Source of the DNA: Microvirga terricola
Lineage (GTDB): Bacteria; Pseudomonadota; Alphaproteobacteria; Rhizobiales; Beijerinckiaceae
Reading direction: 5' to 3'
Length of the DNA: 64,000 nucleotides
Assembly (NCBI RefSeq): GCF_011777495.1
Contig: NZ_JAATJS010000002.1
Span: 620,001-684,000, forward strand
Shown here: positions 11,046 through 54,860 of the stretch, one piece after another
How positions within the stretch are numbered: position 1 is the stretch's first letter
Layout of the letters: every line of letters begins with the position of its first letter
Position numbers and translations under genes: made by a program
Notes under the pieces: model-generated
What the model was told of the DNA's origin: nothing
Seen by the model: only the letters and a program-made list of their open reading frames with translations
Databases searched by the model: none

Positions 11046-12862
11046 CCGATGGCGCGCGTCGCGTCCTCAAGCCATGCGCGCGTTTCCGCATCGAGCTTGC
11101 CCGAGAGCTTCTCACGCACCTGTGCGTGATAGGCGTTGAGCCACGCGATCTCGTCCACTGTCATCAGCGACGGTTCGACGAGGCGCAGGTCAATGGGGGA
11201 GAAGGTCAGCGTCTCGAAACCCATCATCTCGCGGTCGCCGCCTTCGATCTTGCGCGGCTCGACGAGGATCAAGTTTTCGATGCGGATGCCGTAGGCGTCC
11301 TTTTTGTAGAAACCGGGCTCGTTGGACAGCATCATGCCGATTTCGAGGGGCGTGGTGCCGATTTTCGCGATGCGCTGCGGACCTTCATGCACCGAGAGAT
11401 AGCTGCCGATGCCGTGGCCGGTGCCGTGGTCGAAATCGAGACCCGCTTCCCACAACGGCTGACGTGCGAAGGAATCGATCTGCGCGCCGGTCGTGCCTTT
11501 CGGAAAAACCGCGCGCGCAATCGCGATGTGGCCCTTCAGGACGCGCGTAAAGCGGTCCTTCATCTCCGCCGTCGGCTGGCCGACGACGATGGTGCGGGTG
11601 ATGTCCGTGGTGCCGTCTTCATATTGCGCGCCGGAATCGATCAGGAAAATCTGATTTTTCTCGATGGGCCGGTTGCTGGAGCGCGTGACGCGGTAATGGG
11701 GCAGGGCGGCGTTGGGGCCCGCGCCGGAAATGCTCGGGAACGACACGTTCTTGAGAGCACCTGTCTCGACGCGGAAGGCTTCGAGAGCTTCCACGGCGTC
11801 GATCTCAGTCAGCGCGCCTTTCGGCGCTTCCTTGTCGAGCCAGGCGAGGAAGCGGGCCACCGCCACGCCGTCGCGCAGGTGCGCCGCGTGCGAACCGGCG
11901 ATTTCCGCCTGGTTCTTGACCGCCTTCATCAGGGAGATCGGATCAGCGCCGACATCGATCTTGCCGCCAGCAGCTTCGAGGCGGCGGGCGACCGCGACCG
12001 AACCGGTGGCGGAATCGACGCGGATCTTGCCGCCCTTGTGGCCGAGCGCATCGAGCGCGCTCTGGAAGCCGCAGATCTCCACGAAATGCGCCAGATCGCC
12101 GACTGCCGCGCCAGCCTCATTGGTGATCTTCGTGGGGTCGAAGAAAAGGCTCGCAGGGCCTTCGGCGGGAATGATGGCGTAACCAAGCGGGAGCGGCGTG
12201 TGGCCCACATCGCCGCCGCGCAGGTTGAAGGTCCAGGCGAGATTGTGCGGATCGGACACCACGATGGCATCGAGCTTCGCCTCGACCATCTTCTTGCGGA
12301 TGCGTTCGAGCTTCGAGCGGGCTTCTTCGCCAGCATATTCGATGGGGTGGGGACGGACCGGAGCCTGCGGCGGAGCAGGGCGGTCGATCCAGATCACATC
12401 CACCAGATTGAGATCGACGGGAGCAAGCTCGCCGCCAGCGCGGGCCACCGCCTGCTCAAGGCGCTTGAGTCCGTCGGAGGTCAGCAGCCACGGATCGTAA
12501 GCCAGCGTCGCGCCGGAGGGTAGGTTCGTTGCGATCCAGTCTTCCGCCGACATTTCTGCCAACTGGACCGGGGTGATGGCTGATGTGTCGACTTGCTCCG
12601 CCGCCTGCACGGTGTAGCGTCCATCCACCACGAGCGCGGCCTTGTGCTGGAGCACGATGGCTGTGCCGGCGGAGCCGGTGAAGCCCGTCAGCCACGCCAG
12701 ACGCTCGGCGCTCTTCGGCACATACTCGCCCTGATGCTCGTCGGCGCGGGGAATGATGAACCCCTCGAAGCCGCGGCGGCTCAGTTCCGCCCGCAATTTC
12801 GCGATGCGCGCCGGGCCTTGAGCCGGGGAAGTGGTGTCGTCGAAGGTCTGGAACTGGGCCAT
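11042..12862 (-). CDS. M24B-family Xaa-Pro aminopeptidase
   Basis: The 606-residue protein has the three-part architecture of eukaryote-like cytosolic X-prolyl aminopeptidase 1: two creatinase-type N-terminal domains (MAQFQTFDD ... FEGFIIPRADEHQGEYVP) and a C-terminal pita-bread domain. All dinuclear metal ligands are visible: Asp in FLIDSGAQY, Asp in TTDITRT, His in HGTGHGIGSYLSVHEGP, Glu in LSNEPGFY and Glu in IENLILVE. It should release N-terminal residues preceding proline. It reads convergently into azlD and appears monocistronic. The first residues follow a weak ribosome-binding site, so a slightly different start is possible. Confidence 0.93.
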   Translation of the reverse strand: MAQFQTFDDTTSPAQGPARIAKLRAELSRRGFEGFIIPRADEHQGEYVPKSAERLAWLTGFTGSAGTAIVLQHKAALVVDGRYTVQAAEQVDTSAITPVQLAEMSAEDWIATNLPSGATLAYDPWLLTSDGLKRLEQAVARAGGELAPVDLNLVDVIWIDRPAPPQAPVRPHPIEYAGEEARSKLERIRKKMVEAKLDAIVVSDPHNLAWTFNLRGGDVGHTPLPLGYAIIPAEGPASLFFDPTKITNEAGAAVGDLAHFVEICGFQSALDALGHKGGKIRVDSATGSVAVARRLEAAGGKIDVGADPISLMKAVKNQAEIAGSHAAHLRDGVAVARFLAWLDKEAPKGALTEIDAVEALEAFRVETGALKNVSFPSISGAGPNAALPHYRVTRSSNRPIEKNQIFLIDSGAQYEDGTTDITRTIVVGQPTAEMKDRFTRVLKGHIAIARAVFPKGTTGAQIDSFARQPLWEAGLDFDHGTGHGIGSYLSVHEGPQRIAKIGTTPLEIGMMLSNEPGFYKKDAYGIRIENLILVEPRKIEGGDREMMGFETLTFSPIDLRLVEPSLMTVDEIAWLNAYHAQVREKLSGKLDAETRAWLEDATRAIG

Positions 12863-30136: not shown

Positions 30137-30175
30137 GAAAAAAGAAAGTGGAGGCTTCTGTTGCCAGGTGCCTCC
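30137..30175 (-). terminator. Terminator of the tmRNA gene
   Basis: On the minus strand GGAGGC (complement of 30170-30175) pairs with GCCTCC (complement of 30150-30155) and is followed by a T-rich run (complement of 30137-30148). It sits between ssrA and sspB; sspB starts only 13 bases further on, so some readthrough could supply sspB. Confidence 0.65.
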
Positions 30176-30464
30176 GAACCCCGCCTAACGGTGCTAACCG
30201 CTAGGACTTTGAGTCGGCTTTAGGGACCGCTTACGCAGCCACTGCAACCGGAGCATAGTTGTCGTTGGCAACTATTGAATCGGCCCGATAACGGCGGAAC
30301 CATTCCGAGCAAAAGTCTACCCTTTACGCCCTCGTCGATCCTATTTCGCCCCCGCCAAAACCCATGCAGAGCCTGGGTTTTGGTGGAGGCGCCGGGTACC
30401 GCCCCCGGGTCCGATGGGTTTATTCCGATAGCCGTTTATCGCCATAGCCAGCCTTGCGGCGGGC
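30150..30464 (-). ncRNA. ssrA: Circularly permuted two-piece tmRNA
   Basis: tmRNA rescues stalled ribosomes. On the minus strand the tag frame at 30269-30231 reads [12 protein letters not shown] followed by TAA. The 5' end of the coding piece is at 30353 (GGGGGCGAAATAGGATCGACG). Upstream in the gene lies the acceptor piece ending CGCCTCCACCA at 30381. Its CGCCUCC pairs with GGGGGCG to give a 7-bp acceptor stem (one G-U), and CCGGG-GGCGGTA-CCCGG forms the T arm. So the order is acceptor piece, a 27-base intervening segment (30354-30380, with an AAACCC/GGGTTT stem), then coding piece: the permuted arrangement of alphaproteobacteria. The 5' limit of the acceptor piece is estimated from the promoter. 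Confidence 0.93.
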
Positions 30465-30470
30465 AGTGGC

Positions 30471-30499
30471 AATATAAGAAAGGCAAAACCATTTTGAAA
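30471..30499 (-). promoter_or_regulatory. Probable sigma-70-type promoter of ssrA
   Basis: On the minus strand TTTCAA (complement of 30494-30499) and TATATT (complement of 30471-30476) are separated by 17 bases. This would start transcription about 30464, just before the acceptor piece. The -35 is imperfect, but spacing and position fit. Confidence 0.5.
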
Positions 30500-48244: not shown

Positions 48245-49810
48245 ATGACCGCTTCTTCCGCCGCCGGCTCTTCCAAAGACCGCGTATTGATCTTCGACAC
48301 CACCCTGCGCGACGGCGAGCAATGCCCCGGCGCGACCATGACGCTGGAAGAGAAGCTCGAGGTGGCCGACCTGCTCGATGCCATGGGCGTCGACATCATC
48401 GAGGCGGGCTTCCCCATTGCCTCCAACGGCGATTTCGAGGCCGTGTCCCTCATCGCCAAGCGCATCAAGAACGCGACCGTCGCGGGTCTCGCCCGCGCCA
48501 TTTCCGCCGACATCGCCCGCGCCGGTGAGGCCGTGCGTCACGCGGCCCGGCCGCGCATCCACACCTTCGTCTCCACCTCGCCGATCCATTTGGCGCACCA
48601 GATGCGTAAGACGGAAGAGGAGGTGCTGGAGATCATCACCAAGACGGTGACCCAGGCCCGCAACCTCGTCGACAACATCGAGTGGTCGGCGATGGATGCC
48701 ACGCGCACGCCCATCGACTATCTGTGCCGCTGCGTGGATGCCGCCATCAAGGCCGGCGCCACCACCATCAACCTGCCCGACACCGTGGGCTATGCGACGC
48801 CGGATGAATATCGCGCCATGTTCAAGGCGGTGCGCGAGCGCGTGCCGAATGCGGACAAGGCGATCTTCTCCGCCCATTGCCACAACGATCTCGGCCTCGC
48901 GGTCGCGAACTCGCTGGCAGCTTTGGAAGGCGGCGCGCGGCAGATCGAATGCACCCTCAACGGCATCGGCGAGCGCGCGGGCAATGCGGCGCTGGAAGAA
49001 GTCGTGATGGCGATCAAGACCCGCGGCGACGTGCTGCCCTACGAGACCGGCATCGAAGCCACGATGCTGACGCGCGCCTCGAAGCTCGCGTCCGCCGCCA
49101 CCTCGTTCCCGGTGCAGTACAACAAGGCCATCGTGGGCCGGAACGCCTTCGCGCATGAAAGCGGCATCCACCAGGACGGCATGCTGAAGAACGCGCAGAC
49201 CTACGAGATCATGACGCCGGAGAGCGTCGGCGTGTCCAAGACCTCGCTCGTCATGGGCAAGCATTCGGGCCGCGCGGCGTTCCGCAACAAGCTGGAAGAG
49301 CTGGGCTACAGCCTGTCCGACAACCAGTTCCAGGATGCGTTCGAGCGTTTCAAGGATCTCGCCGACCGCAAGAAGCACGTCTACGACGAGGATATCGAGG
49401 CGCTGGTCGACCAGAACATCGCCACCGCCCATGACCGCATCAAGCTGGTGTCGCTCTCCATCGTCGCCGGCACGCGCGGCCCGCAGCGCGCCACCATGCG
49501 CCTCCAGGTCGACGGCAAGACCGTGATCGAGGAGCAGGAGGGCAACGGCCCGGTGGATGCCACCTTCAACGCCATCAAGGCGCTGGTGCCGCACGAGGCC
49601 GTGCTGGAGCTTTATCAGGTCCACGCCGTGACCGAGGGCACCGATGCGCAGGCGGAAGTCTCCGTGCGCCTCTCGGCGGATGGCCGCAGCGTCACCGCCC
49701 GCGCCGCCGACCCGGACACGCTCGTCGCTTCCGCCCAGGCCTATCTCGGCGCGCTCAACAAGCTGTTGAGCCGGGGCGCTCGCCTGCACGCGCAACACGC
49801 GGCTGAATAA
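48245..49810 (+). CDS. leuA: 2-isopropylmalate synthase
   Basis: LeuA makes 2-isopropylmalate, the first committed step of leucine synthesis. The ATG at 48245 behind GAGAAGGA gives 521 residues. The catalytic start [15 protein letters not shown] lies at 18-32 and the metal motif [14 protein letters not shown] at about 206-219. The [15 protein letters not shown]-like segment is [15 protein letters not shown] here, and the C-terminal allosteric dimer domain runs from about 390 ([15 protein letters not shown]). It is preceded by a leucine-rich leader peptide and followed by a terminator. Confidence 0.97.
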
Positions 49811-49836
49811 ACCTTCGAGAACGAAACACCGGATCA

Positions 49837-49864
49837 GGGCTCGCTCGGCGAGCCCTTTTCTTTT
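49837..49864 (+). terminator. Rho-independent terminator after leuA
   Basis: Stem GGGCTCGC (49837-49844) / GCGAGCCC (49848-49855) with loop TCG is followed by TTTTCTTTT. It lies 26 bases after the leuA stop. Confidence 0.85.
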
Positions 49865-49876
49865 GGCGCACCTCTT

Positions 49877-49966
49877 CGTCATCCCCGGGCTTGTCCCGGG
49901 GATCCACGTCTTTGTCGGCGGCCGCGTCTCAAGACGTGGATGGCCGGATCAAGTCCGGCCATGACG
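49877..49966. repeat. Composite palindromic intergenic repeat
   Basis: The element is bounded by CGTCAT and ATGACG. It contains CCCCGGG-CTTGT-CCCGGGG, then ATCCACGTCTT (49902-49912) inverted as AAGACGTGGAT (49931-49941), then GGCCGGA-TCAAG-TCCGGCC. Mosaic repeats of this form are scattered between genes in many Hyphomicrobiales. It is a nested hairpin structure with no coding potential. Confidence 0.7.
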
Positions 49967-50374
49967 GGTGGGAGCCGTGTGGAATTCCTGTTCCCCTGAG
50001 ATGTCAAAGAGCAAGCGCCTTCGGGCTCGGAGCAGGACTGCTCCGGGCCTGAAGGGCAATCGAGGGAGGCGCGGTGTGCGGTCCGGCTCGATGGCAGAGT
50101 GTTAAGGAGAGCCGGCTGGCACCCCGCGCACGGTTCTTTTAGGCGGACAGGCGGCGTTGGCTCCTGAACTGGCCGTGGCGGAACCGCCAGCAAGGACGGA
50201 ACGGCCACGCACCTGCCTGAGCCCTCAGCTGATGCCTGGGCCTCCCGCCGGGTGGGGGTGCGTTTCCCCCAGCCGCGGGACCGTGCCCGACCCCACAATT
50301 CACGACGCCTCGCGAGCGCGCCCCTCATTGGGCCGGGACACCCCATACATGGCTCATGTTGGGAATGTTGTCAA
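49967..50374. other. Gene-poor left flank of the DGQHR-Dam island
   Basis: About 400 GC-rich bases without a convincing gene or recognised RNA. Short complementary stretches exist (for example CGGGCTCGGAGCAG / CTGCTCCGGGCC near 50025-50055), but no tRNA or known ncRNA shape was found. No integrase or att-like repeat was identified. The composition changes to AT-richer right after about 50,360. Confidence 0.3.
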
Positions 50375-50389
50375 GAACAAAATAAGAAC
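50375..50389. promoter_or_regulatory. LexA (SOS) box, alphaproteobacterial type
   Basis: The sequence GAAC-AAAATAA-GAAC is a perfect GAAC-N7-GAAC, i.e. GTTC-N7-GTTC on the other strand, the established LexA operator of alphaproteobacteria. A TTGTCA at 50368-50373 could be an overlapping -35 element. It lies 139 bases before the DGQHR gene with no other gene between, so damage-inducible control of the island is suggested. Confidence 0.55.
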
Positions 50390-50527
50390 ATGCGGCGCGG
50401 CGGAGGTGGTGAAGCGGCCTGCACAACTTATGCACGCAAACGAAAGAGGTTGCCTTGACAATCAATATATCGGCGGGCTTCCTGCGGATAAGTCTTTCAG
50501 TTCGGACGAACTAGTGCAGCTGTTCTC

Positions 50528-52882
50528 ATGACCATAGCTGATCCCCTTGAAAAAGCGCTTATCGTGCAAGTTGAAGACAGCAAGACGAACTTCCTCGCGT
50601 CTCTCTTAGATAATGAGACGGCTTTGGCTTCAGAATACCGGACGCGTAATAGTGCTTTTGATTTTAAGAGTGTTCATCCCGCCGATGTAAGTACTGAGGA
50701 AGCTCGAGGCTGGGCAGTGCAACGCCCAGGAAAGCGGGCTACCAGACTTAAGCGCCGGAAAAGCCATGATAAATCGTTCGACGATAGTGTTTGGTGCTTG
50801 CTGCGCACCATGGGCTATGGAACCCTGAACGATGGTAATTTTAAAATTACCTTTACTCGTAGTGATGGCTCGATAGGTAGGAAGCAGATCGATGTCTACG
50901 CCGAGGATAGCGAAACCGCGCTTGTAATCGAGTGTAAGTCGCGAGAAGAGCGTGGGCGACGCTCTCTGCAAAAGGACATTCAAGATACCATATCGCTACA
51001 ACAATATTTCCGAGACTCCATTAACAAGCGGTTCAGGGGTAAGGAAAAGCCGAAAATTGTATGGGTCTACGCGACCAGTAATATTTTGTGGTCCGTACAG
51101 GATATTGAACGCGCTGAGTTGGGCGACATCAAGATCGTTACGGAAAACGAGCTGCAGTATTTTGATGCGTTCGTGAAGCACATGGGGCCGGCCGGGAAAT
51201 ATCAAATCCTCGGCGAGTTCCTAAAGGGCCAGAAGGTGCCGGGCCTCACAAATGTCAAACTGCCTGCGATTCGAGGTAAGATTGGCGGCGAGGTATTTTA
51301 CAGCTTCGCCACCACACCTCGGAATTTGCTGAAGATTGCGTTTATCAATCATCAGGCTCTGAATCATCCAGACGGACGTCCCGCGTATCAAAGGATGATC
51401 TCGTCGACGCGGATCAAACAAATCGGCGCCTTCATAGAGAAAGGCGGATTCTTCCCGACCAACATTTTGGTAAATTTCTCCGATGCGCCTCGCTTTGATT
51501 TGATTTCTAATAGTGAGAACACCGATCCAAACCTCAAATTCGGCTGGATCACATTGCCATCGAAATATCGTTCGGCGTGGATCATCGACGGCCAACACCG
51601 GCTATATGGATTTTCCCATCTAGATGAAAAATATCTGGATCAAAGCCTATTCGTTCTGGCCTTCGAGAGAATGTCAGTTCAGAAGGAAGCTGATCTCTTT
51701 ATAACGATCAATCACAAGCAGAAGAGTGTTCCGAAGAGCTTGCTGGTAAGCCTGCTGGCCGATATTCGATTGGGGGATAGTGACCCATCGACCGCACTAT
51801 CTGCACTCGGTTCCGCTGTCGTAAGAACATTAAATACTGACAAGGCGAGCCCGCTGGCACGGCGCTTTGCTACCCCGGGGGTGCCACCGGAGCCGAGCCA
51901 GAATCTCACGGTATCAGAAGCTGTGAACGGTTTGCGGCGATCCGGCCTAATTGGCAAAGTTGCGGGCACGATACTTGCCCCTGGGCCGCTTTCTGGTGCG
52001 ACTGATGAAGACACGGTCAAACGAGCTGCCAAAGTTCTGAATGCCTACTTTGAGGACGCTAGGGCAGCCAATTCAAAGCGTTGGGAGGCTGGTCGAGATG
52101 CATTCATAGCTGTGAACCCCGGCATACGCGCTCATCTCAGTGTGGTTGCCGAAGCTATGTCCTATCTCTCAGAACATAAATCGCTTGATTTTCCGCTTAT
52201 GGCGCCGGAAGACGTCGCAAAGCACATCACAACGTTTTGCTCACCGATCTTCACCTTCATCAAGGAAGCTTCTGACGATGAGGTGCGGAGCAAGTTCTCT
52301 CGAAAGTTCGGTGAAGGCGGCGTCAAAGAATACACCTACCACCTGATGCAAATCCTTACTGAGGCCCATAGCGATTTTGGTACAGAAGAGTTCCAACGGT
52401 GGGTTCAACAAAGTGCCTCGGAAAAAATTGATGAGGTGAACCAGTTTCTGATGAAGCTCGCTGAGCGGCTGACGAACTGTGTAATCAACACATTGAAAGA
52501 AGTTCACGGTATGCACCGGCTTCCCAGTGATGAGCCGGCGTTTTGGGAGATCGGTGTTCAGAGCGAGCGTATCCGGCGAAATGCGTTTGAAGCTCAGCAG
52601 AACGACAAGACGCGCCGAAAGGCCAAAGAAGCCTATCTCAACATTGTTGATCTAATCGAGATTGTTAAGCAACCCAACAATTGGGACCATTTTGAACATG
52701 TCTTTAAAAATCCGCGCCCTGATGAACGCGCTGGCCAAAAATACTATCTTGGATGGATCCAAACGTTTAATGAGCTTCGGAATATTGCTGCCCATAAGAA
52801 TCAGTTGAAGATTTACACGGATCAGGATCTCGAATTCGTCGAGTGGCTACGGACTGAAGTTGATCCGAAGGTCCCGAGATGA
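50528..52882 (+). CDS. DGQHR (DndB-like) protein with N-terminal nuclease-like and C-terminal HEPN-like regions
   Basis: The 784-residue protein is multi-domain. At about 85-165 there is a PD-(D/E)XK nuclease-like core: D122 in QIDVYA, then E135 and K137 in VIECKS, then a helix with QQYF. At about 245-480 lies the DGQHR family region, with the motif WIIDGQHRLYGF (DGQHR at 354-358) and ADLFITINHKQKSV (389-401); this fold is shared with DndB, which regulates DNA phosphorothioation. The C-terminus (from about 715) is helical with RNIAAH at 751-756, an RxxxxH motif as in HEPN/Swt1-type RNases. It overlaps the dam gene by 4 bases. The coding sequence is visibly AT-richer than its neighbours. Nuclease and RNase activities are inferred from motifs only. 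Confidence 0.8.
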   Translation: MTIADPLEKALIVQVEDSKTNFLASLLDNETALASEYRTRNSAFDFKSVHPADVSTEEARGWAVQRPGKRATRLKRRKSHDKSFDDSVWCLLRTMGYGTLNDGNFKITFTRSDGSIGRKQIDVYAEDSETALVIECKSREERGRRSLQKDIQDTISLQQYFRDSINKRFRGKEKPKIVWVYATSNILWSVQDIERAELGDIKIVTENELQYFDAFVKHMGPAGKYQILGEFLKGQKVPGLTNVKLPAIRGKIGGEVFYSFATTPRNLLKIAFINHQALNHPDGRPAYQRMISSTRIKQIGAFIEKGGFFPTNILVNFSDAPRFDLISNSENTDPNLKFGWITLPSKYRSAWIIDGQHRLYGFSHLDEKYLDQSLFVLAFERMSVQKEADLFITINHKQKSVPKSLLVSLLADIRLGDSDPSTALSALGSAVVRTLNTDKASPLARRFATPGVPPEPSQNLTVSEAVNGLRRSGLIGKVAGTILAPGPLSGATDEDTVKRAAKVLNAYFEDARAANSKRWEAGRDAFIAVNPGIRAHLSVVAEAMSYLSEHKSLDFPLMAPEDVAKHITTFCSPIFTFIKEASDDEVRSKFSRKFGEGGVKEYTYHLMQILTEAHSDFGTEEFQRWVQQSASEKIDEVNQFLMKLAERLTNCVINTLKEVHGMHRLPSDEPAFWEIGVQSERIRRNAFEAQQNDKTRRKAKEAYLNIVDLIEIVKQPNNWDHFEHVFKNPRPDERAGQKYYLGWIQTFNELRNIAAHKNQLKIYTDQDLEFVEWLRTEVDPKVPR

Positions 52883-53685
52883 CGAGGCAGGCGCTCAAGC
52901 CATTCCTAAAATGGGCGGGCGGAAAACGCTGGCTGTTCGAAACCGGCCAGTTCACGCTTCCGACCGTCACAGGTAGATATATAGAACCGTTTCTAGGTGG
53001 CGGAGCGGTATTCTTTGCGAATCGGCCTAAAAAAGCGATTCTCAGCGACTCGAATGACCGGTTGATCGAGCTTTTTGTAGTGATTCGGGACGAACTGAAA
53101 GAGTTCGAAGCGTTGCTACGAAAACATGCCAATTCACATTCGAAAGAATATTATTATGAGATGCGCTCGAAAAGGCTTAGAAAACCAACAGCCCGCGCAG
53201 CGCAATTCCTTTATCTCAACCGTACATGTTGGAACGGTCTTTATCGAGAAAACCTGAAAGGGCAGTTCAATGTCCCGATCGGTACAAAGCAAACGGTAAT
53301 TTTTGATACAGACGATTTTTCGGCTTGGTCGAAGGCGCTGCAGGGAGCGCGTGTAGAGCATCGTGATTTCGAGGTCGCGATCGACGAAGCCAGGGAAGGG
53401 GACTTTATATTCGTTGATCCACCTTACACCGTTCGACACAATATGAATGGCTTCGTAAAGTATAATCAAAAAATATTTGCCTGGTGCGATCAGGTTCGCT
53501 TGCGCAACGCGCTCCAGCGTGCGTCCGAGCGAGGCGCCTCATTCGCCATGACAAATGCAGATCACGAGAGCATTAAAGATCTGTATGCCGGTTTTGGGTA
53601 TCAACGGCAGCTTGGGCGTCATAGCGTGATTGCCGGCCAGTCCGTTCACCGCGCCTATTCGACGGAATTACTCATCACGGGGTGA
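52879..53685 (+). CDS. Dam-family DNA adenine N6-methyltransferase
   Basis: A 268-residue alpha-class N6-adenine methylase: FLKWAGGK at 9-16, SAM-binding EPFLGGGAVFF at 36-46, the Dam-family block LNRTCWNGLYRENLKGQFNVP (113-133) and the catalytic DPPY at 180-183. Its start overlaps the DGQHR gene stop (ATGA), indicating translational coupling. The recognition site cannot be read from sequence; GATC is only the family's commonest target. Base composition matches the preceding gene, not the flanks. Probable role: host modification protecting DNA from the partner, or epigenetic control. Confidence 0.92.
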   Translation: MTRQALKPFLKWAGGKRWLFETGQFTLPTVTGRYIEPFLGGGAVFFANRPKKAILSDSNDRLIELFVVIRDELKEFEALLRKHANSHSKEYYYEMRSKRLRKPTARAAQFLYLNRTCWNGLYRENLKGQFNVPIGTKQTVIFDTDDFSAWSKALQGARVEHRDFEVAIDEAREGDFIFVDPPYTVRHNMNGFVKYNQKIFAWCDQVRLRNALQRASERGASFAMTNADHESIKDLYAGFGYQRQLGRHSVIAGQSVHRAYSTELLITG

Positions 53686-53944
53686 TTTCGAGCCCAAACT
53701 AACTCACTGACTTGACTCTTGATTGGCTTGTCAGCCTCCCCCCACCCATTGACCCATCGCCCCTTTCACGTGTTATCTCGATGCCGGAGCCGGGCGCACC
53801 CGGTTCTGGGGCTTAAGAACCCCACTCAGAGCGGCCGGCATCGGCCGTCAATGATGCCTTCCTTGCCTTATGGCCGGAGAGGCGATGGCGCATGTCCAGG
53901 GCGAAAGCCTAAAGGTCATCGCGGCCGTCTCTGGGCGGTTTCTT
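53686..53944. other. Spacer between the dam gene and the XRE leader
   Basis: No gene is supported here. Composition returns to GC-rich. Two small inverted repeats are visible: GGGG-CTTAAGAA-CCCC (about 53807-53822) and CGGCCG-GCAT-CGGCCG (53832-53847). Neither has a T run. No att-like duplication of the left flank was recognised. Confidence 0.35.
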
Positions 53945-53997
53945 AACTCCCCGACCACCAGCGCCGCTGGTGGTCGATCACCGCCACAGGGGGAGTT
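53945..53997 (+). promoter_or_regulatory. Leader hairpin occluding the Shine-Dalgarno of the XRE gene
   Basis: An 11-bp perfect stem CGACCACCAGC (53952-53962) / GCTGGTGGTCG (53966-53976) with loop GCC is flanked by AACTCCC (53945-53951) and GGGAGTT (53991-53997), which can close an outer stem. The right outer arm contains the Shine-Dalgarno AGGGGGAG (53988-53995) of the XRE gene at 54003. Folding would hide the ribosome-binding site, so translational control is plausible. Confidence 0.5.
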
Positions 53998-54002
53998 TTT
54001 CA

Positions 54003-54374
54003 ATGAGCAAAGCGCACTTTCCGGCCAAAGTCCCAAGCAGCGCCGACCGGCGCATCGGCCAGCGCATCCGCTTGCGTCGGCTGGACCTCGGGATGAGCCA
54101 GGAGAGGCTGGCGGAGACGTTGGGGCTCACCTTTCAGCAGGTGCAAAAATACGAGAACGGCAAGAACCGCGTCAGCGCGGGCCGGTTGCAGGAGATCGCG
54201 CGGGCGCTCGGTGTGTCGGTGACATTCTTCTATGACGACGAGGACTTGCCACCGATCGGGCAGGGGACGCCGTACAGCGTCTCGCTGCTCAGGGCCTTCG
54301 GCGCCATCGCGCATCCCGACCTGCGCCGGCAGGCGCTGGCGGTCGTGCAGGCGATTGCCGGGGTGAAGGCGTAA
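54003..54374 (+). CDS. XRE-family helix-turn-helix regulator
   Basis: The 123-residue protein has a classical HTH_3 domain at about 18-75: RIGQRIRLRRLDLGMSQERLAE, then LTFQQVQKYENGKNRVSAGRLQ. The tail (76-123) is short and helical. It resembles the many single-domain XRE regulators of Hyphomicrobiales. The start at 54003 follows AGGGGGAG at 7-base spacing, and an upstream frame from 53970 is excluded by that. Targets are unknown; it lies downstream of the DGQHR-dam island, but its composition matches the core genome. Confidence 0.9.
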   Translation: MSKAHFPAKVPSSADRRIGQRIRLRRLDLGMSQERLAETLGLTFQQVQKYENGKNRVSAGRLQEIARALGVSVTFFYDDEDLPPIGQGTPYSVSLLRAFGAIAHPDLRRQALAVVQAIAGVKA

Positions 54375-54383
54375 AGCGCCGTC

Positions 54384-54860
54384 TCAGTCCAAAACCGGGA
54401 TCGGCCCTGCCGACTTGATGCTCGACAGGACGAAGCTTGAGCGCACATCCGCCACGCCGGGCAGGGTGAGCAGGCGGTTCATGGTGAATTCGCCAAAGCT
54501 TTCGATGTCCTTCGCGACCGCGTGGACGATCAGGTCCACCTCGCCCGCGAGCGCGTGGCAGGCGATGACCTCCTCATAATCCTTCAGCCGCTCCACCAGC
54601 CGCGTGCGCCAGCCGGGCTCCGATTGCTCGAGCTTGATGAACACGAAAGCCTCCACCTCAAAGCCGAGGGCCTTGCGGTTCACCACCGCGCGGTAGCCTT
54701 CGATGATCCTGTCCTCTTCCAGCGTTTTCAGTCGCCTGAGACACGGCGAGGCGGCAAGGCCGACTTTCTCGGCGAGCGCCGCATTGGTGATGCGCCCGTC
54801 GCTTTGGAGAATGCGCAGGATACGGCGGTCGGAGGGGGAGAGGGGGCGTTTCATCGGCAT
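54384..54860 (-). CDS. Lrp/AsnC-family transcriptional regulator
   Basis: The 158-residue protein has the N-terminal winged HTH (SDRRILRILQSDGRITNAALAEKVGLAASPCLRRLKTLEE, about 8-47) and the C-terminal RAM ligand domain (VEAFVFIKLEQSEPGW on). Members sense amino acids. It is divergent from phhA across 110 bases, a common arrangement in which it controls phenylalanine degradation. Confidence 0.92.
   Translation of the reverse strand: MPMKRPLSPSDRRILRILQSDGRITNAALAEKVGLAASPCLRRLKTLEEDRIIEGYRAVVNRKALGFEVEAFVFIKLEQSEPGWRTRLVERLKDYEEVIACHALAGEVDLIVHAVAKDIESFGEFTMNRLLTLPGVADVRSSFVLSSIKSAGPIPVLD

Follow-up and report, generated by a model that had tools for sequence, protein, structure and literature searches.

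Introduction

Type II restriction–modification systems of the DpnII and BglII–BstYI kind act on GATC-containing sites; BglII cuts AGATCT and BstYI cuts RGATCY. The CRISPR ancillary nucleases Card1, Can2 and Cdn1 contain a CARF domain that senses cyclic nucleotides. Here we describe a two-gene module of Microvirga terricola which has likenesses to both groups and to nucleases governed by ParB/sulfiredoxin (Srx)-type domains. It lies in a stretch of 64,000 nucleotides (contig NZ_JAATJS010000002.1, positions 620,001 to 684,000; this whole stretch is called the window in the following) and consists of gene A, which codes for a three-domain protein of 784 residues, and gene B, which codes for a Dam-family N6-adenine DNA methylase.

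According to passages of PMC4619093, PMC10952713, PMC12839542 and PMC10853773, ParB/Srx-type domains occur in GmrSD, BrxU, SspE, DndB and DpdB. That immunity is coupled to toxins, HEPN among them, is a broad proposal in a passage of PMC3506569, and PD-lambda-5 is called a compacted restriction–modification plus abortive infection (RM+Abi) system in a part of PMC9519451 (Vassallo et al. 2022).

On balance we consider it probable, with limited confidence, that genes A and B form a horizontally moved, restriction–modification-like defence, in which protein B would mark GATC and a nucleoside triphosphate (NTP)-switched protein A would attack unmethylated DNA, with a HEPN domain as fallback.

Layout of the module

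The two genes together comprise about 3.2 kb and contain the following features.

50528..52882, plus strand: gene A, putative effector of 784 residues with predicted PD-(D/E)XK nuclease, ParB/Srx (DGQHR) and HEPN domains (open reading frame; TIGR03187; AlphaFold2 model)
50765..51166, plus strand: predicted PD-(D/E)XK nuclease domain of A, residues ~80-213, Card1/Can2-like (VIA-align; residue conservation)
50891-50938, plus strand: predicted catalytic residues D122, E135 and K137 of A (conservation)
51266..52144, plus strand: DGQHR domain of A, predicted ParB/sulfiredoxin fold, residues 247-539, fold core ~250-400 (TIGR03187; VIA-align)
51587..51601, plus strand: DGQHR motif of A, residues 354-358 (invariant in 26/26 intact A proteins)
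52295..52879, plus strand: C-terminal HEPN-like domain of A, residues 590-784 (separate AlphaFold2 model; VIA-align)
52778..52795, plus strand: R-x4-H motif RNIAAH of A, residues 751-756 (R751 and H756 invariant, 26/26)
52879..53685, plus strand: gene B, Dam-family N6-adenine DNA methylase of 268 residues, predicted target GATC (TIGR00571; DpnM 2dpm)
53233..53277, plus strand: NGLYREN...FNVP of gene B, equivalents of EcoDam L122, R124 and P134 (alignment to EcoDam and DpnM)
53416..53427, plus strand: DPPY catalytic motif of gene B (kept in 23/23 partner Dams aligned)
49870..54390, no strand: approximate inserted segment between leuA and an Lrp-type gene (both named by eye), holding A, B and a helix-turn-helix (HTH) gene (comparison of same-genus loci)

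The original prediction had named D122, E135, K137, the DGQHR motif at 354-358 and RNIAAH at 751-756 in a 784-residue reading frame, and all these positions are exact. The ATGA overlap with a Dam-family methylase gene is likewise real: the genes share four bases on the plus strand, gene B starts inside the overlap, and its product passes the TIGR00571 cut-off. The start given for the region, 50375, lies 153 bases upstream of the first gene, which begins at 50528. Both genes had been described as AT-richer than their surroundings, which agrees with a GC content of 0.496 for gene A and 0.501 for gene B against 0.622 for the whole window. In 11/11 loci measured the module is AT-rich relative to its flanks.

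An HTH gene at 53970-54374 was considered as a control gene of the module. It has a GC content of 0.657, and a tblastn match to it was found only in the window and in L037 among 33 A-type loci (one per record, window included). Because of the high GC and the missing match at 31/33 loci the gene was excluded; it is probably of different origin from A and B. Scattered partial DNA matches to it occur elsewhere in the genus.

Domains of protein A

Protein A passes the cut-off of the DGQHR family TIGR03187 (E 1.9e-42, residues 247-539) and matches PF14072 DndB (E 6e-12). With gene A alone, the Pfam matches to Card1_endonuc (E 0.019) and Abi_2 (E 0.077) are below threshold; at E<=0.1, 10 of 19 A proteins match Card1_endonuc (best 3.2e-6) and 6 match HEPN_Swt1 (best 0.0044). 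A sequence search of the PDB with gene A gave chance matches only (best E 0.081).

An AlphaFold2 model of protein A was built with 18 homologues (mean pLDDT 84.3, pTM 0.72) and compared with known structures by VIA-align. Residues ~80-213 matched AF1548 (1y88) with Z 10.2 and 3.1 Å over 112 residues. Residues ~15-233 matched VC1899 (1xmx; Z 8.6, 3.8 Å over 123 residues) as well as the Cdn1, Can2 and Card1 nucleases (best Z 7.4-8.6, in part at large root-mean-square deviation). The matches to the nuclease domain include 9u49 (Z 8.6, 181 residues, 7.7 Å) and 8bao (Z 8.4, 164 residues, 4.5 Å). The nuclease fold expected earlier around D122, E135 and K137 was found in this way, and the model supports a PD-(D/E)XK nuclease of the Card1/Can2-like type.

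The central part, residues ~250-400, resembles ParB, Noc and PadC (best Z 7.4) and human sulfiredoxin (Z 5.2). The model supports a ParB/sulfiredoxin fold for this domain, an assignment that rests also on the kinship of DGQHR domains described in a passage of PMC4619093.

For the C-terminus, residues 633-784 of the full model matched the HEPN end of Csm6' (8pe3) with Z 7.4 and 2.8 Å over 99 residues. The C-terminal 195 residues were also modelled separately (pLDDT 86.7), and the top matches were AbiF (Z 6.4), Csm6 (5.6), HI0074 (5.3) and the HEPN protein 4nqf (5.1); the Csm6' entry 8pcw reached only Z 2.7 on this separate model, compared with 7.4 for 8pe3 on the full one. The models thus speak more weakly for a HEPN domain, and the assignment rests equally on the fold scores and on the invariant R751-x4-H756. 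The outcome favours the HEPN-like C-terminus proposed earlier, which is the least firm of the domain assignments.

Profiles of the nuclease and HEPN parts, built from A2, were run on the open frames of 27 DGQHR-type loci. They matched only L019, L025 and L056, all of which are the interrupted copy of one genome, G091 (its two halves, L019 and L025, were counted together as the locus L056). For this reason we take the nuclease and HEPN parts as the mark of A-type proteins.

Conservation was read from 26 intact A proteins, window included, which reach down to ~25% identity. DGQHR, E135, R751 and H756 are invariant in 26/26; D122 is kept in 25/26 (N in L038) and K137 in 22/26 (R or T in L029, L030, L038 and L053). 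This conservation argues that the motifs are not due to chance. The count omits L007 and L017, cut by contig ends, the broken copies L013, L014, L052 and L056, and L037, a near copy of L036.

Comparison with described systems

Like a type II restriction–modification system, the module combines a PD-(D/E)XK nuclease, as predicted, with a neighbouring N6-adenine methylase of the same families. The methylase gene, presumably cognate, lies next to the nuclease gene at 28/33 loci, and the predicted nuclease fold with D122, E135 and K137 is present in the readable methylase-paired copies. In contrast to such systems, A carries its Card1/Can2-like nuclease in one chain with a ParB/Srx switch and a HEPN domain, and in neither Pfam nor NCBIfam does it score above the cut-off of a restriction-enzyme family.

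With SspABCD–SspE, GmrSD and BrxU the module shares a predicted ParB/Srx-fold NTPase that has a DGQxR signature, is joined to a nuclease and is tied to DNA modification. It differs in having DGQHR instead of DUF262, PD-(D/E)XK instead of the HNH domain DUF1524, an extra HEPN domain and its own adenine methylase. Membership in the GmrSD/BrxU/SspE group was rejected, as protein A has no DUF262 or DUF1524 match (Pfam, E<=1) and neither is matched in the 19 A proteins (E<=0.1).

DndB, DpdB and other DGQHR proteins have the same DGQHR domain, whereas A is a three-domain fusion and scores far under the DpdB and DGQHR_dnd_1 cut-offs. Assignment to DpdB was not retained: protein A reaches 73.3 bits against an equivalog cut-off of 300, and no search was made for DpdA. 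The motif had been called a mark of DndB-type proteins; the domain is indeed the same, but the ParB/sulfiredoxin fold is used in several non-Dnd systems. The accompanying statement that this is not a classical Dnd system stands, because the genome has no DndC match and its one DndD match, at 18.9 bits, is far below the cut-off of 245.85.

The CRISPR ancillary nucleases Card1, Can2 and Cdn1 resemble A in the fold of the nuclease domain and differ in the central domain, which is of the ParB/Srx type in A and CARF in theirs. Gene B matches the B model of PD-lambda-5 in PADLOC weakly (E 4.2e-9), and 0/19 A proteins match a PADLOC PD-Lambda-5 model at E<=0.1, so that PD-lambda-5 is set apart by family model.

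No description of the three-domain fusion or of its pairing with adenine methylases was found in the open-licence literature, which is weak evidence of novelty as subscription papers, bioRxiv and REBASE lie outside it. We rate the parts and the principle as known and the three-domain assembly and the modifier exchange as without description in that literature.

A recurrent pair of a small protein and a DGQHR protein of ~380-430 residues was noticed at L101, L120, L121, L123 and L124. It lies near Dam, near BglII-type restriction–modification genes or beside dnd genes; the small protein has no Pfam match at any of the four loci tested, and that of L101 looks membrane-spanning by eye. A three-gene unit of a DGQHR protein (~500 residues), a protein of 420-440 residues and a D12 methylase is found on a Zymomonas plasmid (L102) and a Rhizobium tumorigenes plasmid (L122).

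Partner genes and their exchange

A modification-type gene lies beside gene A, or one gene away, at all 33 A-type loci. The partner is a Dam methylase at 24/33 loci (19 downstream, 5 upstream), an MT-A70 methylase at 4/33 (L011, L014, L015, L054; PF05063 E 3.6e-30 to 1.2e-26) and a radical S-adenosylmethionine (radical-SAM) gene at 5/33 (L029, L030, L038, L052, L053). "Beside" is used loosely here, as an insertion splits A in L056 and one gene stands between A and the radical-SAM gene in L029, L030 and L053. The expectation that A co-occurs with a methylase is therefore borne out at 28/33 loci, the other five having a radical-SAM gene; Dam in particular is the usual partner, replaced by MT-A70 or radical-SAM genes at 9/33.

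The proteins of L029 and L030 are annotated as radical-SAM, and those of L038, L052 and L053 were named by matching these; against NCBIfam the L053 protein gives only a sub-threshold RimO match. L029 is the plasmid pNL1 and L030 a Rhizobium plasmid. HSP90-like ATPases accompany the radical-SAM gene in 4/5 loci (not in L038), a PIN protein (PIN_8) in 2/5 (L029 and L030), and in three (L029, L030, L053) a small DGQHR protein adjoins it. The cluster of L029, L030, L052 and L053 is possibly a new DNA-modification defence.

In a maximum-likelihood tree of the A proteins the partner label, with Dam upstream and Dam downstream as separate classes among four, needs 6 changes where 3 is the minimum possible. 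L011, with an MT-A70 partner and an A protein of 71% identity, is nested in a Dam group. Two sister pairs with support of 100/100 have different partners, L015 (MT-A70) with L016 (Dam) and L036 (Dam) with L038 (radical-SAM). Long branches make the deepest part of the tree unsure. The partners were exchanged repeatedly during the evolution of A. The divergences of A and B are correlated over 19 pairs (Mantel r 0.62; 3 of 5000 permutations gave a value at least as high).

As a control, DGQHR loci were collected from 199 genomes of the order; 12 genomes gave 15 loci, 4 of which are A-type. For the other 11, neither a Dam nor an MT-A70 nor a radical-SAM partner of the kinds described was found within the fetched flanks of ~1.5 kb. 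One of these 11, L113, matched the small DGQHR query. In L111 (G091), one of the four A-type control loci, Dam lies beyond the ~1.5 kb flank.

On the viral contig of L036 a stand-alone second DGQHR gene was seen at 11149-12300, ~0.9 kb from the A-type gene and on the opposite strand.

Nuclease site and partner enzyme

For K137 the readings of L013, L014, L037, L052 and L056 were added to the 26 proteins. The lysine is present in 26/26 readable methylase-paired copies compared with 0/5 radical-SAM-paired ones (Fisher p 6e-6, relatedness ignored). In L007 positions 135 and 137, at the very end of the contig, carry different letters; this stretch was treated as an edge artefact and left uncounted. 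On the tree K137 changed on at least two independent branches, and in one sister pair the Dam-paired member (L036) keeps the lysine whereas the radical-SAM-paired one (L038) has both K137 and D122 changed. DGQHR and R-x4-H are kept in every readable copy, radical-SAM-paired ones included. We read this pattern as suggesting that the nuclease is needed when the mark is N6-methyladenine (m6A) and dispensable with another modification partner.

Four copies of A are broken by a frameshift, a stop or an insertion (L013, L014, L052, L056), with an open partner gene in each; a broken methylase beside an intact A was not seen. In L056, a homologous Dam plus A locus, A is split after the nuclease domain by ~3 kb that include a gene which by eye looks transposase-like.

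Target of the methylases

Gene B matches the Dam family TIGR00571 with E 5.5e-66 and 223 bits (cut-off 114.85), and its best PDB match is DpnM (2dpm, E 1.6e-51). The EcoDam residues L122, R124 and P134, which we take to be the positions that read GATC, have equivalents kept as (L/I), R and P in all 23 partner Dams aligned, the one of the window included, and the same 23 keep DPPY. Judged by these residues, gene B probably methylates the adenine in GATC. The same genome holds a second D12-class methylase (L041, G000:C1:428624-429322) without the NGLYR-FNVP motif.

A plasmid MT-A70 with 72% identity to the partner of L011 adjoins a BglII-family endonuclease (PF09195, E 7.1e-24). There are 17 plasmid MT-A70 relatives at >=60% identity, of which 11 records were opened, the other 6 being from the same or a related organism as one of those opened. 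The neighbour is of the BglII/BstYI type in 6 of the 11 and an AAA ATPase in 4, and the annotation is uninformative in 1. Because both swapped-in kinds of methylase are tied to GATC-containing sites, the company they keep argues that protein A may be aimed at GATC DNA.

Among plasmid records 551 have a B-like methylase, and three were opened. The nearest two (Roseateles and Zymomonas, 55-56% identity) adjoin shorter DGQHR proteins, and the third (Geobacillus, 41%) adjoins an AlwI-family endonuclease. B-like methylases thus exist without gene A, and the link between Dam and DGQHR is wider than gene A.

Distribution and insertion site

A genome scan yielded 17 A loci at 46-82% identity in Devosia, Mesorhizobium, Rhizobiaceae and other Proteobacteria, and also in metagenome-assembled genomes labelled Nitrospirota, Dadabacteria and Deltaproteobacteria, among others, where contamination of the assembly is possible. 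Genome searches gave 6 more A loci besides the window, plasmids two further A kinds at ~30% identity, and viral contigs 7 relatives of full or almost full length. Two further viral scans, with distant members as queries, returned only re-cut copies of known contigs, and a re-scan with A2 found the same eight loci. Duplicate plasmid records (H2, H3, H5) and loci with DGQHR only (H6-H8, L020-L024, L026-L028, L039) were not counted as A-type. At E 1e-30, matches to A occur in 6 of 397 genomes of the order and in 2 of 398 of a phylum sample, the genome of the window being one in each. A protein search of 101 genomes (that of the window and 100 relatives) found an intact full-length A only in the window's own genome, an interrupted A in G091 and DGQHR-only matches in five more.

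The insertion site was compared in 10 of the 14 same-genus genomes in which most of the query was found. In 8/10 of these loci leuA adjoins the Lrp-type gene (named by eye), with 28-3153 bases of differing content between them, and neither A nor B is present at the site in any of the 10 loci fetched. With the window (49810-54390) set beside L091-L096, L098 and L099, the gap ranges from 28 to 4574 bases with differing content, as in a variable insertion spot. Since the relatives have neither gene at the site and the content of the gap differs, A and B appear to have been inserted at a variable position. The module as a whole looks rare, sporadic and mobile, a horizontally moved insert.

Proposed mode of action

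The data show the anatomy of A, the conservation of its catalytic residues, the steady presence and the exchange of a modification-type partner, and an insertion at a site where relatives have neither gene. The activities and the defensive role itself are inferred, the methylation by B from homology. Protein B would add the N6-methyl group to the adenine of GATC and so mark host DNA. The ParB/Srx (DGQHR) domain of A would bind or hydrolyse a nucleotide and contact DNA; when unmethylated GATC-containing DNA is met, the Card1/Can2-like nuclease would be released and cut or nick it. The HEPN domain may act as an RNase fallback which halts the cell when the attack on DNA fails; this is the weakest step. 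If correct, a two-gene cassette of ~3.2 kb would combine the marking of self, restriction of DNA under NTP control and an RNase fallback, functions that in other defences are spread over several proteins.

We favour this restriction–modification-like defence because of the constant modification-type partner, the partner swaps, the convergence on GATC and the link of K137 to methylases, and also because of the correlated divergence of A and B, the broken A genes beside open partners, the sporadic mobile spread and the nuclease and HEPN parts specific to A. Each computational test that the original prediction had named supports its interpretation as a modification-linked two-gene defence, that of the HEPN fold least firmly.

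Several observations weigh against this proposal. The published nucleases gated by ParB/Srx domains (GmrSD, BrxU, SspE) are mostly type IV or modification-sensing, not classical restriction enzymes. As the radical-SAM group loses the lysine and keeps DGQHR and R-x4-H, the nuclease is not the sole output of the family. Gene A is about three times longer than gene B, which is a possible reason why A is the gene found broken, and the radical-SAM gene of L038 aligns over 1-422 of 545 residues and may be a shortened one beside an intact A. The GATC target of MT-A70 is deduced from neighbours, and 5 of the 11 relatives opened have no BglII-type gene. Concerning the folds, the HEPN scores of Z 5.1-7.4, with mostly HEPN proteins on top, are not decisive for helical folds, and ParB and HEPN scores below Z 8 may reflect just a common arrangement, according to the warning of the tool. 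Foldseek gave a single match at E<=0.001 with the full model (Cdn1) and none with the HEPN part (best Csm6, E 0.65).

Alternative explanations

A wider reading, to which we assign a tentative minority chance, regards the DGQHR (ParB/Srx) domain as a general modification-reading switch that may be wired to interchangeable modifiers (Dam, MT-A70, radical-SAM) and outputs. Gene A would then be the compact form, with DNase and RNase in one chain; the DNase would be active with an m6A mark and lost with a radical-SAM mark, and the PIN and HSP90-like ATPase proteins may replace it. Such a switch would represent a class of defence intermediate between restriction of types II and IV, and a new DNA modification made by radical-SAM enzymes would be expected. 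The division into intact and lost nuclease sites by partner enzyme also points to a radical-SAM modification system, of which no description was found in the open-licence papers searched.

The main rival is a scheme similar to SspE, which we consider rather unlikely. The NTPase of protein A would fire only on binding the host's own methylated GATC, and the enzyme, once freed, would attack unmodified invader DNA, so that the methylase would gate the effector and not merely protect. As a ParB/Srx-type domain, DGQHR is related to DUF262, which passages of PMC4619093 and PMC10952713 report for SspE, and according to a part of PMC9646914 SspE depends on the phosphorothioate modification of the host and is switched by GTP hydrolysis. 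That A always has a modifier as partner, even across exchanges of that modifier, agrees with this. However, gene A lacks DUF262 and DUF1524 matches, and K137 is lost solely beside radical-SAM partners, as would suit a nuclease linked to protection by methylation. A broken A beside an open modifier is consistent with both models. Because close effector relatives pair with different methylases, the family offers a natural test of what the effectors recognise: the site, the mark or a missing mark.

In a scheme of the toxin–antitoxin type, which appears improbable to us, the HEPN domain would be the toxin and the methylase would silence it via a nucleic-acid trigger or target, any effect on phages arising by growth arrest only. 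HEPN domains work as toxins according to a passage of PMC3506569, and R-x4-H is invariant in 26/26 proteins, even where the nuclease lysine is lost. But three unrelated kinds of modification enzyme would be odd as antitoxins, and the PD-(D/E)XK site is kept in all readable methylase-paired copies.

We think it very improbable that A is part of the modification machinery, in which its DGQHR ATPase would help its partner to modify DNA as DpdB does for DpdA. The DGQHR domain does match DpdB (PADLOC E 3.9e-22; 19/19 A proteins), and the additional small DGQHR protein that adjoins the radical-SAM gene in three of the five such loci would suit it; the match is nevertheless well below the 300-bit cut-off (see above), and the nuclease and HEPN domains are left unexplained. 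To our knowledge Dam-type enzymes need no helper.

That A is a type IV enzyme attacking methylated foreign DNA, with B as a chance or regulatory neighbour, recalls the ParB/Srx plus nuclease relatives GmrSD and BrxU, which are type IV according to a passage of PMC10952713, but is hardly credible because the host's own DNA would come under attack if its operon also encoded a GATC methylase, and Dam is kept at 24/33 loci.

Elsewhere in the window, ARAGORN located a tmRNA gene at 30140-30473.

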